64,000 nucleotides of DNA, taken from contig JABSOX010000003.1 in NCBI GenBank assembly GCA_013215655.1, positions 1-64,000 on the forward strand, read 5' to 3'. Positions 2,826-9,927 of the stretch are shown one piece after another. Every line of letters starts with the position of its first letter. Positions within the stretch are counted from its first letter, which is position 1. The DNA comes from Colwellia sp. Its GTDB lineage: Bacteria > Pseudomonadota > Gammaproteobacteria > Enterobacterales > Alteromonadaceae. The notes beneath the pieces are model-generated. The model saw only the letters and a list, made by a program, of their open reading frames with translations, was not told the DNA's origin and searched no databases. The position numbers and the translations under genes were made by a program.

Positions 2826-3210
2826 TTTTCTAAGTAATACCAATATTTTGAGTTATTGATCTCCTTTGAAATAGGAAATAGGAAATAGGAAATAGTGGAT
2901 TATATAGGTTAATAACTTTACGTTGTTTTAAGTTCACTTTTTGTAAATCTTCGCCGATATGACGTAAAAAAAATAGCAAGCGGATTGACATTTCAATACA
3001 AGGTTTGACTCAATCAAGAGAGGCTTATTTATTTCCGCCTTGGCAGCATAATAAACTTCAACAGCAGACAATGGGAAGTAATCGACAATCCATCTCTAAC
3101 AACTAATCAACGCAACGCACACATTATTATTTACTCACTCGACGATATAAAACAAAACAAACAAATTAAACTAAACTGTATATGTGCCAACTAATTTTGT
3201 GGTGATTATT
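2826..3210. other. Intergenic region between sbcB and the barrel protein
   Basis: About 385 bases without a recognisable gene. It contains four exact tandem copies of the heptamer GAAATAG at 2868-2895. A TTGACA at 2985-2990 could be a -35 element, but no good -10 follows at the right distance. I see no terminator with a clear T tract after sbcB. Confidence 0.4.
2868..2895. repeat. Four tandem copies of GAAATAG
   Basis: Seven-base unit GAAATAG repeated four times without mismatch, 43 bases after the sbcB stop. It is a simple short tandem repeat and could vary in copy number between strains. Confidence 0.85.
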
Positions 3211-4413
3211 ATGTTATTTAATAAAAGTTCATTCCTATTTATGACCTTTATAGTTTTGTACAGCACAGTAAGCCCTGCCGATTCTCTATCGGAAGCATTA
3301 GATAAAGGTAAAGCGTATGCAAATCTAAATTTACGTTTTGAAAATGTAGAACAGGATAATGCTAAAAAAGATGCCGATGCCTTAACTTTAAGAACAAGAT
3401 TTGGTTTTAAATCAGCTCCTGTAAAACTATTTTCTTTTGCAATTGAATTTGAAGACTCTAGAGTAGTCGCTGGTAATGATGATTATCATAATGCAAATGG
3501 AAAGCACAGTGATTATTCAACCATTGCAGATCCTGAAACAACAGAACTCGATCAGTTTTATATTCAATATAAAACTCATAATTTCAGCAGTAAAATTGGC
3601 CGCCAAGTGTTAACTTTGGACGATCATCGTTTTGTTGGCCATGTTGGATGGCGACAAGACCGACAAACATTTGATGGCATTTCAGCAATATATTCTGCAA
3701 ATGATAATTTAAAATTTAACTATGCTTTTATTAATCAACGTAATCGTATTTTTGCTCAGGAAAAAGATATTGATTCCGAAGACCATTTGTTGAATGCCTC
3801 TTACAAAACATCTATTGGTACCTTAATTGCGTACGGTTATTTACTAGAAATTGATGATACCAACGATAATAGTATAGATACTTGGGGTATACGTTGGGTA
3901 AATAATGGCAAAAGTAAACCCAAACGTATGTTTTATTTACTTGAATTTGCCTCTCAAGAATCTCGAGTTGCAAACATAGATTATGACAGTGATTATCTTC
4001 ACCTTGAAGTTGGTACTGTATTTAACGGCTTAACCGGAAAAGTTGGTTTTGAATCTTTAGGATCAGACAATGGTAACTATGGTTTTTCAACACCTTTAGC
4101 AACATTACATAAGTTTAACGGTTGGTCAGATCAGTTCCTTGGTACACCCAAACAAGGCCTAGAAGATTTATATATTTCATTAGCAGGTAAAGCCTTTGGC
4201 GGCAAATGGACAGTGGTTTATCATGATTTTAATGCCGATGAATCTACCGACAATATTGATGACTTAGGTAATGAAATTGATTTCAGCTACGGTAAAGGTT
4301 TCGGTAAACATTACTTTGCTGGAATTAAATATGCGAGTTATTCAGCTGGAGATCAAGCTGCAGGGAAAGTTGATACCGATAAGTTATGGTTATGGTTAGG
4401 TGTAAAATTTTAG
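3211..4413 (+). CDS. Putative outer-membrane beta-barrel (porin-like, alginate-export type)
   Basis: Predicted exported outer-membrane protein of 400 residues. The ATG at 3211 gives a standard signal peptide (short basic start, hydrophobic FLFMTFIVLYSTV, cleavage near SPADS). An in-frame GTG at 3184 would add nine residues in front and looks less likely. The mature part consists of alternating polar/hydrophobic strands separated by Gly/Asn/Asp-rich turns, with no Cys, and ends in a phenylalanine (LWLGVKF), the usual recognition signal for barrel assembly. The region around QFYIQYKTHNFSSKIGRQ and DDHRFVGHVGWRQDRQTFDG recalls the alginate-export/OprO-like barrels. The substrate is unknown. It is convergent with the cytochrome gene downstream. 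Confidence 0.7.
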   Translation: MLFNKSSFLFMTFIVLYSTVSPADSLSEALDKGKAYANLNLRFENVEQDNAKKDADALTLRTRFGFKSAPVKLFSFAIEFEDSRVVAGNDDYHNANGKHSDYSTIADPETTELDQFYIQYKTHNFSSKIGRQVLTLDDHRFVGHVGWRQDRQTFDGISAIYSANDNLKFNYAFINQRNRIFAQEKDIDSEDHLLNASYKTSIGTLIAYGYLLEIDDTNDNSIDTWGIRWVNNGKSKPKRMFYLLEFASQESRVANIDYDSDYLHLEVGTVFNGLTGKVGFESLGSDNGNYGFSTPLATLHKFNGWSDQFLGTPKQGLEDLYISLAGKAFGGKWTVVYHDFNADESTDNIDDLGNEIDFSYGKGFGKHYFAGIKYASYSAGDQAAGKVDTDKLWLWLGVKF

Positions 4414-4506: not shown

Positions 4507-6360
4507 TTATTGAGCCGATCTTTTCAAAGTTATTTTACCTTGTATATGACCGGCTAACTTTAGCTCAATAGACTTTTGCTGACCAATCTCTAATGTAGTA
4601 GTAAATAAACCAAATTTAGGTAACCAGATTTTAATTTCTTTAAACTTCTCCGGAAAACCTGTCATGGAAAATCGTTGGTAATTTTGATTAGCCTTAAATT
4701 TAGTTATTTTATAAAATTTACTGCTAATTGAACCAACCCAGGAGCTCATATACAAATGTAAACGACATTTCATTTCAACAAAAATATCATTATCCCAGAA
4801 TAATTCCTGCTCGAAACTTGAGTTAGGTGGCATATAGTTTAATTGCCAACGAACATTTTGCTTTTTGTCTTTTACATATATGGTGTGGCCGACTTCATCA
4901 GAATTACGCAAACTCATTTGGCTGCCTTTATTGCCTAAAATTAGTTTCTCGCTAAAGTAGCCGTTGTTGTGATCCATGATTGGAACATTTTTCAAACTAT
5001 GATCTTCCGGCCAATAAATTGCCATGACAGGTGGAATAAATTGACTATTAATAAATTGAACTTCGACTTGTAAACCTGGCCCCGTTAATATGTTTGATTT
5101 TAAGGGCAATAGATTATTATAGGTTAATTTATTAGGCTTAATTTGAGTCTTGTTAAATTTCACGTTATCTGGTGTTGGTAACGTTTTTAGCCATTGATGA
5201 ATTAACGATAAAGCCTGATAGTCAACTTTTTCACTTGCTAACATTGGCATTCTATAGTCTTCGTCTGTGCTGTTCATTCTCAAATATAAAGCACTTTGAT
5301 ATAGCGCGAGTTCATCTTGACTAGCCCCAAGAATTATATAAGGCACAGCGGTAAAATTTCTAGTTTTTTGATTAACTGCCGTGGTATATACGTTTGTTTT
5401 TGCCAGTGTATCAAAAGATAATTCATGTCTAAAATTCAGATGTTCTGCTTCTTGTTCTGCTGCATGACCCAACTTATTGTGACAATTACCACAGTTAGCG
5501 TGTAAGTACCCTAATACTTTTTGCTCTATTTCTACACCAGGTAAAACAGGTGTGTCTATTGGATGCGTTAAACGATTTTTGGATATTAGAGATTTTAACG
5601 TCCATTCATTTTCTTTTCGCTGAGTGCCATGTCCAAAAGCATATTTACCTTGTTTATCACTTAACTGTATTGCTTCAAAGCCAAGTATTATGTCGGTATT
5701 TCCTTTGTGACAGTCAATGCAGTCTTGTTGAGTAGGTATATCATGTTCAGTATTTAATACGTTATTTACTCCCGAATTTAAATACGCTTCCGTTTGCTCT
5801 ATATTCCATAGATAGGTGTTTAATAACCAAGAATTGATTCCTGCCCCTGATTTTATTTTTTGTAAATGTCGAGTTTCAACTTTAATTTCGTTGTTGGTCT
5901 TGGTTGATATTTGACGAAATTCTTTAAAAATTTGGGTACCAACAGGAAATATCCATCTATCCGGGTTTGAAGTATTAATTTGAGTGTTTTGTGGTAAATA
6001 AATCCAGCGAGTTTTAGTGGCTCCATCACTCCACAGTTGATAATTAGGGGTGAATTTTATTAATTGACTCGATACATTTAGCTGTTCTAAATCTTTATAT
6101 ATACACGATTGTGAAAGCTTTATTGGGACTTTTGTATACTTCGATGTTACTGCACAACTAATTTTTTTTGGATTGGGAGTTACATTTATGAAATGGCATG
6201 AAGCTAAGGCAGTTGTTATCGATAAAATAAAAATTAACTTCGCTAATTTAAGTAGTGCCAATTGTATTTTACAGCGTAGCATTGTGATATTTAGCATATT
6301 TAATTCAAGCCATTTTTCGAAATTAAATAAAGTTATCTTTCTATCCCCCCCTGCAAGCAT
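4507..6360 (-). CDS. Diheme cytochrome c lipoprotein with C-terminal cupredoxin-like domain
   Basis: Predicted periplasmic, lipid-anchored electron-transfer protein. A hydrophobic segment ends in the lipobox LASC (Cys55). The start at 6360 leaves a long leader, so Met22 (6297) or Met27 (6282) would give a normal lipoprotein signal. The domain at about 100-190 contains LWSDGATKTRWIYLP and FPVGTQIFKEF, seen in SO_2930-like multihaem proteins. Haem motifs are CIDCH (214-218) and CGNCH (290-294), and Met373 in RMPML could be an axial ligand. The C-terminal part (about 425-617) carries GHTIYV and CRLHLYM, i.e. His492, Cys532, His535 and Met538, the spacing of a type-1 copper site. The haem motifs are certain. 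The copper site is inferred. Confidence 0.75.
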   Translation of the reverse strand: MLAGGDRKITLFNFEKWLELNMLNITMLRCKIQLALLKLAKLIFILSITTALASCHFINVTPNPKKISCAVTSKYTKVPIKLSQSCIYKDLEQLNVSSQLIKFTPNYQLWSDGATKTRWIYLPQNTQINTSNPDRWIFPVGTQIFKEFRQISTKTNNEIKVETRHLQKIKSGAGINSWLLNTYLWNIEQTEAYLNSGVNNVLNTEHDIPTQQDCIDCHKGNTDIILGFEAIQLSDKQGKYAFGHGTQRKENEWTLKSLISKNRLTHPIDTPVLPGVEIEQKVLGYLHANCGNCHNKLGHAAEQEAEHLNFRHELSFDTLAKTNVYTTAVNQKTRNFTAVPYIILGASQDELALYQSALYLRMNSTDEDYRMPMLASEKVDYQALSLIHQWLKTLPTPDNVKFNKTQIKPNKLTYNNLLPLKSNILTGPGLQVEVQFINSQFIPPVMAIYWPEDHSLKNVPIMDHNNGYFSEKLILGNKGSQMSLRNSDEVGHTIYVKDKKQNVRWQLNYMPPNSSFEQELFWDNDIFVEMKCRLHLYMSSWVGSISSKFYKITKFKANQNYQRFSMTGFPEKFKEIKIWLPKFGLFTTTLEIGQQKSIELKLAGHIQGKITLKRSAQ

Positions 6361-6452: not shown

Positions 6453-8159
6453 TTAAACCTTAAACTGCTTGACCAAGGAAGCAAGCTTGTGAGACAACTT
6501 AAGTATATTTTCGCTTGCACTCATCGTACTTTCAACTGCAGCTGTGGTCGTAGCAAAACTATCATTGATATCAACAATATTATGATTAATATCATCTGCA
6601 ACCATGGTTTGCTCTTCTGCAGAAGTTGCAATCATAGTATTAAGATCGTTAATTTCATTTATTTTTTTCTCTATCGTTTCGAATGAAACCCCTGTTTGAT
6701 CAGCTTGTTCTGACACATGTTGTGCTTCTTTACTACCATCAGACATAAGGTGGACTGCATTTTGAGTACCGGATTGTAAATTGGTTATGATATTATTAAT
6801 TTCGGAAGTTGATTCTTTAGTGCGTTGTGCTAACGTTCTTACTTCATCAGCCACTACAGCAAAACCTCGGCCAGCTTCACCGGCTCGTGCCGCCTCTATT
6901 GCTGCATTTAATGCTAGCAAATTTGTTTGTTCTGAAATACTACCAATAACGTCTAAAACACTGCCTATTTCAGTACTATATTTATCTACTTCTTGTATAG
7001 CTTGATCAGCTTTTTGGATAAGTTTTGACAGTTCCTGCGTTTCAGATATCGAACTATCTACTTTTTGTCGCCCTTCGGTAGCGGCTTCTTTGGCAAAAAG
7101 TGTTGATTGGGTTGCTTGTTCTGTATTTTCTGCAACACCTTGTACTGTTGTTGCCATTTCAGTGATGGCTGTGGCCACTTGTTCTGTGGCTCTTTGTTGC
7201 TCTTCGACACCTTCTTTGGCTTTTTGCATTAAATTTACTAAATTTGAAATCGCACTATCGAGCTCTAAACATGACTCGCTCACTTGACTAACTATGCTAG
7301 AAAATTGGTCCATCATAAGGTTAAAAGAAGTTCCTGTTACCCCGATTTCATCCATGTTTCTCACTTCAAACCTCAATGTTAGATCTGATTCTTGCTGTAT
7401 CTTTTCAACCGTGTTTCTAAGTCTTTCTATTGGAACACAAAGTTCCCTGTTCATTAAATAACTAAACAATAAACTGAGTGAAACAATGATTATTAATATA
7501 AAAATTGAAACACTGAGCAAGGTAGAGTTTTTTTCAACGATACTATCTGCTGATAGTTTTAATTTATTGCCTGAAAGAGTGACAATCTGCCCCGCTTTAC
7601 TCGTTTTTTCGCTAATTTCATTTAGTTTGCCATTGCTCTCTTGTTTAAAATCATCAATAAGTTGTTCAATCTCTAGAACTAATAATCGTCCATCGGCAAC
7701 CGTTGAATTACCTTTTACACGATTCTCGTCAACATAGGCGTCTACAGCCTCTAACATTAAATCATTCAATTGTTCGATTTTATTCGATAAATTTTGTGAG
7801 AGGTTATTGTCTATCTCAGAAAGTTGGGCTAGCAGTGTTTTTAGACTCTCAAGTGAAGTATTCGCATTGTCTTCAGCTTCATTTAACCAGCTAACTGAAA
7901 GGTCTAATAACCAAGCACGTAAATCTCTAAACTCTTGGTCAATCTGAATGATCAACGCCTGTTTGTTTCTTTCTTCATCTTGTACATTTTGCAGTGAGTC
8001 TTGTTGTTCTATTGCTCTAAGTTGTTCATTAACAAAACCTTGTTGGATTACACTAATGTTGGATGTTGACTGAACATTAAATAATATATAAATCAGCGCT
8101 ATCGCAACAACAGCAGAAAAACTTAAACTGCCAACAATTAACTTGGTTGAAATATTCAT
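6453..8159 (-). CDS. Methyl-accepting chemotaxis protein
   Basis: Transmembrane chemoreceptor that signals to CheA/CheW. The 568 residues show a first membrane helix (about 8-28), a helical periplasmic domain (29-213), a second membrane helix (214-236), HAMP (about 237-290) and the cytoplasmic signalling hairpin with its conserved tip around [18 protein letters not shown] (410-427) and [18 protein letters not shown] (430-447). The periplasmic part is rich in coiled-coil sequence and could be a four-helix-bundle sensor. It is the last of three minus-strand genes and starts 26 bases after the stop of the c-haem gene. This suggests it transmits a signal sensed by the two exported proteins upstream. 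Confidence 0.93.
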
Positions 8160-8185
8160 AGCTTTTGACTTCTATATTATTTACA

Positions 8186-8914
8186 TTACTGATAAATGAT
8201 AAGGCTTATTGCTCCACCTAATTCACCTAGAACTCCACCTTCCTTTTTACCGCCTGAAATATCCCTTTCACCTTTAGGTTCTCCATGACATTTTAGACAT
8301 GACTTACCATAATATTCTGGTAAAATAAACCGAAAAGCGTCCTTACCTTTAACATTGCTTTGCTCTGAAAAAGCTTTACCTTTTTGATAGTCTGCTTTTT
8401 TGAACATATTTTCTATTACATTATGTTCCCACTTGTCAGGACGGTTTGCTCGGTTGCGAACATATTTCTTGGGAGCTGTCAGTTTAATTTTCATTTTACC
8501 TGACATTTTATTGTTAAATTTGTTAGCCAATTGACGAGCAAAAATAGCAGGTAAAAACCCTTTAAAACCAACGTCTTGTTCATTTATAAGATCTTGGTTC
8601 TCATTCATTACATCTTGAACTGAATTGAACATTGCTTTTTGACTTTCACTCATACTTTTCATCGTTAAAGATTTATTATTGGCTTTATTATAGTTTTCTA
8701 AAGCCTTGGAACTAACGACTTTACCTGACAAACCTTTATCACCAATATTCGCCGTATTAATATGTCCTTGATTATCTGAAATTACTTTCCTTGCTGCTCT
8801 ATATAAACTGGTTAATTCTTGGCTAATATTGTCTTGAGATTGAGCGAAACTCAACTCTGGCATTATCATAGTGAGACAAAACAAAGCGCATAAACATCGT
8901 TTGGTATTCATCAT
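8186..8914 (-). CDS. Periplasmic Tll0287-like (DUF3365) c-type haem protein
   Basis: Exported protein of 242 residues with a signal peptide (MMNTKRCLCALFCLTMIMPELSFA) and a single covalent haem motif CLKCH at 206-210, followed by GEPKG. This arrangement (N-terminal helical PAS-like fold, CxxCHGxP near the C-terminus) is that of the Tll0287-like/DUF3365 family, a proposed haem-based redox or gas sensor domain that also occurs fused to chemoreceptors and histidine kinases. Here it is a separate protein between a binding protein and a chemoreceptor. The haem attachment is directly supported. The sensing role is inferred from context. Confidence 0.82.
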   Translation of the reverse strand: MMNTKRCLCALFCLTMIMPELSFAQSQDNISQELTSLYRAARKVISDNQGHINTANIGDKGLSGKVVSSKALENYNKANNKSLTMKSMSESQKAMFNSVQDVMNENQDLINEQDVGFKGFLPAIFARQLANKFNNKMSGKMKIKLTAPKKYVRNRANRPDKWEHNVIENMFKKADYQKGKAFSEQSNVKGKDAFRFILPEYYGKSCLKCHGEPKGERDISGGKKEGGVLGELGGAISLIIYQ

Positions 8915-8994
8915 TTTGTTCCTTACCTTATTGAACTTACAAACCTACATTAAATTTCTTAAACATGATTAAGTATAGACAATATCAAAATTTA

Positions 8995-9777
8995 TCAAAG
9001 CTTCCTTTTTGGGCAAAGTGGGAACTGGTTTGGTGCTAATTCTGATAACTGTTTTTGTGCTCTCACTTCACTCAAAGCCGCGTTAAATTCGTTCATAAAA
9101 ACTTGAGCATTATTATTTTTTTTAGAAACTAGTAGTCTAAGAGCAATTCTACGCTTTCGAAATGGGATGGGATGTACTTTAATATTTTTTGCTTCAGGCT
9201 CTTTAATTTGATTAATGATTGATAACCCAACTCGTTTGTCGACCAAGAATAAGTCAATTTCTCGATTTAATAATAAGTTTATGTTGTGACGATCAGTTCC
9301 TGATACCTCAACGTTAGGTCTATCCATATCCAGTAAGCGTTTTAAATCACTTCCATAAGCGTAACGTGCGGTAATGCCTATTGTAAATTCACGGTCTAAG
9401 TCTTCAATGTTTGACCAATTGAATTTGAGATCTTTATGGTAAAATATGGCTGTTTCTTCATAACCTATAGGGTCACTAAAGATAAAGTCATTCACTCTTG
9501 ATTGGTTACATTCCCAACCAGCAGCCACATCTAATAAATTAGCTTTGACTTTAACCAAGGCGCCAACTCCCGTACGATACCAAACCACTTCAACTTGTTG
9601 ATTTAGTTTCTCAAAAACGCTGATTATTAAAGCTAGTTGTTGTCCGCCATTAGCTGCATTCTTTGAATAATAAGGAGGCCAGTCAGTCACGGCAATTTTA
9701 ACTGTACCTTGCGCAGATGACATGGCCATTAGAGATGCAAAGACAATTAATAATAAGTATCGGAAGGAAGCATACAT
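8995..9777 (-). CDS. Periplasmic amino-acid-type substrate-binding protein (solitary)
   Basis: Family 3 extracellular solute-binding protein, 260 residues, with a cleavable signal peptide ending near MSSAQG. Recognisable parts are VKIAVTDWPPYY at the mature start, LDVAAGWECNQSRVNDFIFSDPIGYEE (typical of the ligand-binding cleft), FTIGITARYAYG and the hinge region INLLLNREIDLFLVD. No permease or ATPase gene is nearby, so it is unlikely to serve a transporter encoded here. It is the first gene of the unit and is followed after 80 bases by the c-haem protein. A role as ligand-binding partner of the chemoreceptor is an inference. The ligand is unknown. Confidence 0.8.
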   Translation of the reverse strand: MYASFRYLLLIVFASLMAMSSAQGTVKIAVTDWPPYYSKNAANGGQQLALIISVFEKLNQQVEVVWYRTGVGALVKVKANLLDVAAGWECNQSRVNDFIFSDPIGYEETAIFYHKDLKFNWSNIEDLDREFTIGITARYAYGSDLKRLLDMDRPNVEVSGTDRHNINLLLNREIDLFLVDKRVGLSIINQIKEPEAKNIKVHPIPFRKRRIALRLLVSKKNNNAQVFMNEFNAALSEVRAQKQLSELAPNQFPLCPKRKL

Positions 9778-9892: not shown

Positions 9893-9927
9893 CATTATTT
9901 ACACATTTGCCAAATGTGTAAATAATG
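9893..9927. promoter_or_regulatory. 35-base perfect palindrome (possible operator or hairpin)
   Basis: Arms of 17 bases (9893-9909 and 9911-9927) are exact reverse complements around a single central C. The core reads ACACATTT...AAATGTGT. It lies 116 bases upstream of the binding-protein start codon. There is no T tract directly after it on the minus strand, so an operator or structured RNA fits better than a simple terminator. A shorter palindrome with the same core lies at 51102-51124. Confidence 0.55.

Follow-up and report, generated by a model that had tools for sequence, protein, structure and literature searches.

Gene content and layout of the cluster

The window, by which we mean the whole 64,000-nucleotide stretch of Colwellia sp. 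DNA analysed here, contains three closely spaced open reading frames on its minus strand (8995-9777, 8186-8914 and 6453-8159), with intergenic gaps of 80 and 26 bases. An earlier sequence-only reading had interpreted them as a family 3 binding protein without a transporter, a one-heme protein of the DUF3365/Tll0287 type and a chemoreceptor with a helical periplasmic domain. The open reading frames and Pfam matches confirm both the existence and the positions of all three genes, and the three descriptions agree with the domain analyses given below. Together with a fourth gene, the features are:

8995-9777, minus strand: solitary family 3 solute-binding protein (SBP3), 260 amino acids, an optional cluster member (SBP_bac_3 match; ortholog with 57% identity at locus L027)
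8186-8914, minus strand: stand-alone sCache_heme (DUF3365/Tll0287-like) protein, predicted to be exported, 242 amino acids, duplicated-helix subfamily (PF11845 match and structural model)
8678-8812, minus strand: first copy of the duplicated helical segment of the heme protein, residues 35-79 (profile-profile match to the second copy)
8504-8638, minus strand: second copy of this segment, residues 93-137 (profile-profile match)
8285-8299, minus strand: CLKCH heme c attachment motif of the heme protein, residues 206-210 (sequence)
6453-8159, minus strand: chemoreceptor (MCP), 568 amino acids, with HAMP and MCP signalling domains (Pfam)
7506-8078, minus strand: periplasmic four-helix-bundle sensor domain of the MCP, modelled residues 28-218, the proposed docking site of the heme protein (model and co-occurrence)
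4507-6360, minus strand: diheme c-type (SO2930/TIGR03806-like) protein, a probable extra cluster member (TIGR03806 match below cut-off; a neighbour in relatives)

Signal peptides of the window proteins were judged by eye only. SBP3 matches SBP_bac_3 at 32.5 bits (cut-off 26.4), and a phmmer search of it against the PDB returned nothing at E ≤ 0.001. No permease or ATPase gene lies beside it in the window, where a role as importer subunit is consequently not supported, although a transporter may be encoded at a distance. The chemoreceptor exceeds the Pfam cut-offs for both HAMP (26.9 bits, cut-off 25) and MCPsignal (149.1 bits, cut-off 34.6), and its periplasmic domain is modelled by AlphaFold as four helices with a mean pLDDT of 92.5. 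It is one of many in this organism, with 17 MCP-signal matches in the window genome.

Two further features of the region were recorded. A porin gene of the Alginate_exp type is found close to the cluster (3184-4413), and a gene of this type directly precedes the heme gene at locus L162 (5573-6940). A perfect inverted repeat with 17-base arms and a 1-base spacer (9893-9927) is situated 116 bases upstream of the SBP3 start. It was dropped as a candidate operator: three other such repeats occur in the window, and perfect repeats with arms of at least 8 bases were not found upstream of the clusters at L049, L050, L028, L153 and L032.

The heme protein belongs to a separate, duplicated-helix branch

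The middle gene product matches PF11845 (Tll0287-like) at 73.1 bits against a cut-off of 24.1, over residues 86-240 only, and carries a single CLKCH motif whose cysteines are the only ones after residue 13. The CXXCH columns are invariant in the A1 alignment of its subfamily. In the part of the protein preceding the PF11845 region, profile-profile comparison identified a repeat of the helical segment that follows (probability 98%, E 2.4e-13, 45 columns); neither copy matches the heme half of the protein. The duplication is also visible in single sequences, where none of 500 shuffles reached the observed score for 14 of the 19 proteins and 1 to 23 did so for the other five.

The structural model (pLDDT 90.6) predicts two helix pairs followed by a sheet. 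Over 143 residues this model aligns with the Cache fold of Tll0287 (PDB 5b82) at Z 13.1, with the next entry at 7.4. Searches of the PDB returned nothing for the model with Foldseek at E ≤ 0.001, Tll0287 emerging only in a second comparison, and nothing for the sequence with phmmer at E ≤ 1; a profile of its family reaches Tll0287 at E 0.0001. The closest named relatives, at 78 and 75% identity, come from Colwellia metagenome-assembled genomes (MAGs). Elsewhere in the window genome, Tll0287-like domains occur inside frames of 1196 and 603 amino acids (L002, G000:C105; L004, G000:C86), which are probably fused sensors. In another genome, a 60-amino-acid frame (L016, G109:C1:451445-451600) aligns, at 62% identity, with no more than the C-terminal 52 residues of the heme protein and is perhaps a gene remnant.

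The classical stand-alone proteins, namely Tll0287 and the P. putida protein described in PMC12889525, are exported and unfused with one heme c, as predicted for the window protein, and share its predicted fold. They differ from it in a further cysteine, which is present in 39 of 39 classical controls, typically within GGPxxAIxVC, and which we take to be the axial heme ligand by analogy with Cys59 of the P. putida protein (PMC12889525). The window protein lacks this mark of the classical redox-type stand-alones; some of its subfamily relatives have cysteines at other places. A tree computed on the region that all these proteins share places the duplicated-helix group on one side of a branch with support of 100/99, and 39 classical and 21 fused or membrane-type proteins outside it. 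This tree of 101 proteins was computed without L029-L031, L049, L058, L071, L165 and the fused entries after the first 20, and the tree program warned of long branches, L039 foremost. On the absent cysteine and the separate branch, we rejected identification of the window protein as a classical Tll0287-type carrier.

Heme and chemoreceptor genes form a recurrent pair

Relatives of the heme protein were collected by sequence, not by gene neighbourhood. The subfamily was defined as the window locus plus matches above 200 bits to the A1 profile, itself built from 19 of the resulting proteins; with L049 omitted for lying on the same contig as L027, this gave 36 loci. An adjacent same-strand MCP gene was found at 26 of them, with gaps of 6 to 303 bases, and an MCP gene separated by one or two intervening genes at four more (L032, L033, L054, L058). 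Two loci have a hybrid histidine kinase as partner (L163, L164) and four have no transducer (L056, L059, L060, L073), two opposite-strand MCP-profile matches at L056 being left uncounted. Clustering at 90% identity reduces the set to 27, of which 17 have an adjacent MCP, four an MCP with genes between, two a hybrid kinase and four none.

The MCP gene lies downstream of the heme gene at 25 of the 26 adjacent loci. At the other, L052, it lies upstream, and this MCP itself matches PF11845 weakly (27.5 bits). Adjacent pairs occur in Colwellia, Planctomycetota, Nitrospinia, Deltaproteobacteria and Thermodesulfobacteriota, and at L028-L031 the pair sits beside genes that we read by eye as cheB, cheD, cheR, cheW, MCP and cheA. 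Conversely, none of 40 control sCache_heme loci has an MCP or SBP3 gene within about 4 kb, some of these flanks being cut by contig ends. The controls were picked by hand from frames of about 185-260 amino acids, skipping entries close to the start of a contig, repeat genomes and some others, and are therefore not a random draw; one of them (L109) is a membrane-type protein. A further 11 loci were omitted from the 36 as more distant or broken (L034-L039, L154-L156, L165, L166): one has an MCP gene next to the heme gene (L165), six have an SBP3 gene and four have neither. At L165 (G779:C165) an in-frame TAG interrupts the subfamily heme gene, which still precedes the MCP gene.

The stand-alone heme protein is thus genetically tied to transducers, and heme protein and chemoreceptor constitute a recurrent pair across bacterial groups. 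The sequence-only reading had proposed that separate polypeptides share one sensing task. For heme protein plus chemoreceptor this idea is well supported by recurrence; for all three genes it does not generalise, since the order SBP3-heme-MCP is present at just two of the 36 loci, the window and L027, and a general three-gene module is rejected on that count.

A sensor domain co-occurs with the heme protein

The sensor domain of the window MCP has no appreciable match to any Pfam family. Partner MCPs ranging from the Colwellia group to two Planctomycetota MAGs have this domain in common; its W, D, L and S positions are invariant, as are a later D and R. After re-alignment, the nearest solved domains to its modelled bundle are those of McpS, TorS and LytS at Z 14.4-14.9, with TorS and LytS at 14.4-14.7, values that are only modestly telling for helical bundles; the listed LytS structures are complexes with a binding protein.

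We compared the distributions of domain and heme protein across genome samples, using a domain profile built from heme-linked copies. In the family sample, the domain occurs in 8 of 147 genomes, the same eight that contain the heme protein at E ≤ 1e-90. The hypergeometric chance of this overlap is 2e-13, uncorrected for kinship among eight genomes that represent only four genera, and the comparison assumes that both searches covered the same 147 genomes, as the agreement of the listed handles indicates. In G073, one of the genomes surveyed, two additional MCP genes or gene fragments carry the domain at a distance from a heme gene. The class samples differ in size, with 369 genomes for the heme protein and 321 for the sensor domain. 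Here three genomes have the domain. Two of them, the window's and G451, also have the heme gene; in the third, G209, the match is weak and the retrieved stretch contains no heme gene. Distant heme relatives are present in three other genomes of the class (G160, G322, G456), with no transducer next to them. In the phylum sample, all three genomes with the domain out of 190 (the window's, G564 and G583) have the heme gene.

Both hybrid kinases also have this domain, and their neighbour is a heme protein of the same kind. Since the domain is found on MCPs and hybrid kinases alike, it is the domain, and not the output, that goes with the heme protein. This, together with the overlap in the family sample, makes the four-helix domain the likely docking site of the heme protein. 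The domain profile has no match in the partner MCPs of deltaproteobacterial and Thermodesulfobacteriota MAGs; among these MCPs, one has a dCache_3 match above cut-off and one just below.

It is very improbable that the SBP3, heme and MCP genes are neighbours by chance. Such an explanation could draw on the four subfamily loci without a transducer and on the 10 of 11 distant loci without an MCP, but we rejected it on the recurrence counts and the empty control loci, and the eight-of-eight co-occurrence speaks against it as well.

The binding protein is an optional member

SBP3 is a less constant companion. The SBP3 at L027 is 57% identical to that of the window, and the gene order is the same. 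The test named in the sequence-only reading, co-occurrence of the trio in other genomes, is borne out only in part. Two other groups of SBP3 adjoin the heme subfamily. One lies directly downstream of the heme gene at six loci (L034-L038, L166), which lack an adjacent MCP, and the other directly upstream in two Nitrospirota MAGs (L059, L060). The three groups show no convincing BLAST similarity to each other (best E 0.004). Because these two groups lie next to heme genes from other branches of the same subfamily, the window SBP3 is unlikely to be a random neighbour, and the recurrence of SBP3-heme pairs points to a functional connection that the receptor can do without.

The sequence-only reading had named regular pairing of the binding protein with an ABC permease elsewhere as evidence against its proposal. 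Among 59 of the 88 open reading frames flanking SBP3 relatives at 28 loci, no ABC-transporter family occurs in two or more, single-member families being incompletely listed. The nearest same-family relatives of the SBP3 outside the trio form short tandem SBP3-like arrays (L168-L171, L188-L191, L194; G095, G124, G061, G013). The heme proteins at L034-L038 and L166, one of them in the window genome (G000:C95), form a second duplicated-helix group, with an SBP3-like gene directly after the heme gene at six of six loci. In the two Nitrospirota MAGs, genes for Fnr-like, copper-nitrite-reductase-like, SBP3 and heme proteins form one strand run (L059:4377-8654; L060:1677-6002), the first two matching below NCBIfam cut-offs (202-208 bits against 296 for the reductase).

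SBP3 could be the true detector for the MCP, as in indirect amino-acid chemotaxis, with the heme protein only tuning or protecting it. The presence of SBP3 genes beside three branches of the heme subfamily would fit such a role. However, 34 of the 36 subfamily loci lack the trio and the heme-transducer pair mostly occurs without an adjacent SBP3, and we regard this arrangement as improbable.

A diheme neighbour and a possible role in electron transfer

The sequence-only reading overlooked a gene for a diheme c-type protein situated 92 bases beyond the MCP gene (4507-6360), which matches TIGR03806 at 141 bits, below the 313-bit cut-off. Such a gene adjoins the cluster at four loci: the window, L027, L050 and L032. 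At L027 the same four genes occur in the same order on the opposite side of an sbcB-like gene relative to the window, and the set has therefore been held together through rearrangement.

This neighbour lends some weight to an account in which the heme protein carries electrons in the periplasm, perhaps together with the diheme protein. The MCP would then only be co-expressed, letting cells swim while this electron path is used, and would make no contact with the heme protein. Stand-alone sCache_heme proteins are moreover assigned redox roles in PMC12889525. Most loci with the heme-MCP pair, however, have no diheme gene, and the window protein falls on another branch than the classical stand-alones and lacks their cysteine. 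A tie to one particular sensor domain, shared by MCPs and kinases, would also be unexpected for an electron carrier. We therefore consider electron transfer without contact an unlikely explanation, if one with somewhat more in its favour than detection by SBP3.

A proposed model for heme-dependent chemoreceptor signalling

We are now able to propose a function for the pair. The heme protein is probably a separate periplasmic heme-c sensing subunit, responsive to NO or redox state, that acts non-covalently on the adjacent chemoreceptor. The genes, domains, heme motif, helix duplication, pairing and domain co-occurrence on which this model builds are observed, as is the fold in its predicted form; the adjacency of heme and MCP genes falls short of proving contact. 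The loci without a transducer, and the single MCP among the 11 distant loci, count against a sensing subunit, as do the partner MCPs that do not match the domain profile and the domain copies without a nearby heme gene in G073 and, as a weak match, in G209.

According to this model, the exported sCache_heme protein would serve as the periplasmic sensing subunit of the MCP. Its one heme c would change state, either by binding a diatomic ligand, most likely NO, or by a change in oxidation. The heme protein would dock on the four-helix-bundle domain, which may then relay the change via HAMP to the kinase-control tip and so steer swimming. For the window genome, a second chemical signal may enter through the solitary SBP3, and the redox state of the heme may be under the control of the diheme protein. 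We place NO ahead of oxygen because, in PMC12889525, tight NO binding is described for a signalling-type sCache_heme protein, and a stable oxygen complex for none of the proteins tested. No NO-related genes adjoin the window cluster, and the missing axial cysteine and the nitrite-reductase-like neighbours at L059 and L060 bear on NO sensing only indirectly. Redox sensing is also possible, as in GSU0582 and GSU0935 of Geobacter, whose heme has a methionine ligand (PMC8396549).

Several known systems share parts of this arrangement. In GSU0582 and GSU0935, too, an MCP receives its input from a periplasmic heme c Cache domain (PMC8396549), but there the heme domain is fused to the receptor, whereas the window protein is separate, has a duplicated helical segment and partners an MCP with a helical domain of its own. 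In XylFII-LytS (PDB 5xsj/5xsd), a transporter-free binding protein feeds a helical sensor domain; here the main partner is a heme protein, and the binding protein is optional. The nearest working analogue of the heme-MCP pair is the TorS/TorT/TorC system of E. coli, in which the all-helical periplasmic sensor domain of TorS is addressed both by TorT, a binding protein of the periplasm, and by apo-TorC, the heme-free state of a c-type cytochrome (PMC8534201, PMC10845959). The likeness lies in a helical sensor domain with a separate periplasmic partner, and the modelled window domain aligns to TorS at Z 14.7, little above common bundles. The differences are considerable. TorS has a histidine kinase output, while the window protein is an MCP and hybrid kinases occur only at L163 and L164; TorC is a membrane-anchored pentaheme protein that acts without heme, unlike the one-heme window protein; and TorT and SBP3 belong to different families of binding protein.

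More speculatively, the duplicated-helix proteins could form a third sCache_heme class. Its members would be unfused NO sensors, serving chemoreceptors and hybrid kinases as detachable subunits by way of the dedicated, unnamed four-helix domain, and solitary SBP3s would have been recruited repeatedly, letting one receptor read gas and solute together. We offer this wider proposal tentatively, as a possibility.

Among the open-licence literature, no paper describes the heme-protein/chemoreceptor pair in its title or abstract; a description may exist in print elsewhere. The 2026 preprint PMC12889525 contains neither 'operon' nor 'gene order' and uses 'neighborhood' once, in a cited title. There, the stand-alone half of the sCache_heme proteins is given redox roles, and the question is raised of whether signalling occurs at all. 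The subfamily described here is a stand-alone heme Cache protein tied genetically to transducers, and the domain that co-occurs with it points to a likely docking site. If our model is correct, a chemoreceptor can employ, as an exchangeable subunit, a heme-c protein that senses gas or redox state.
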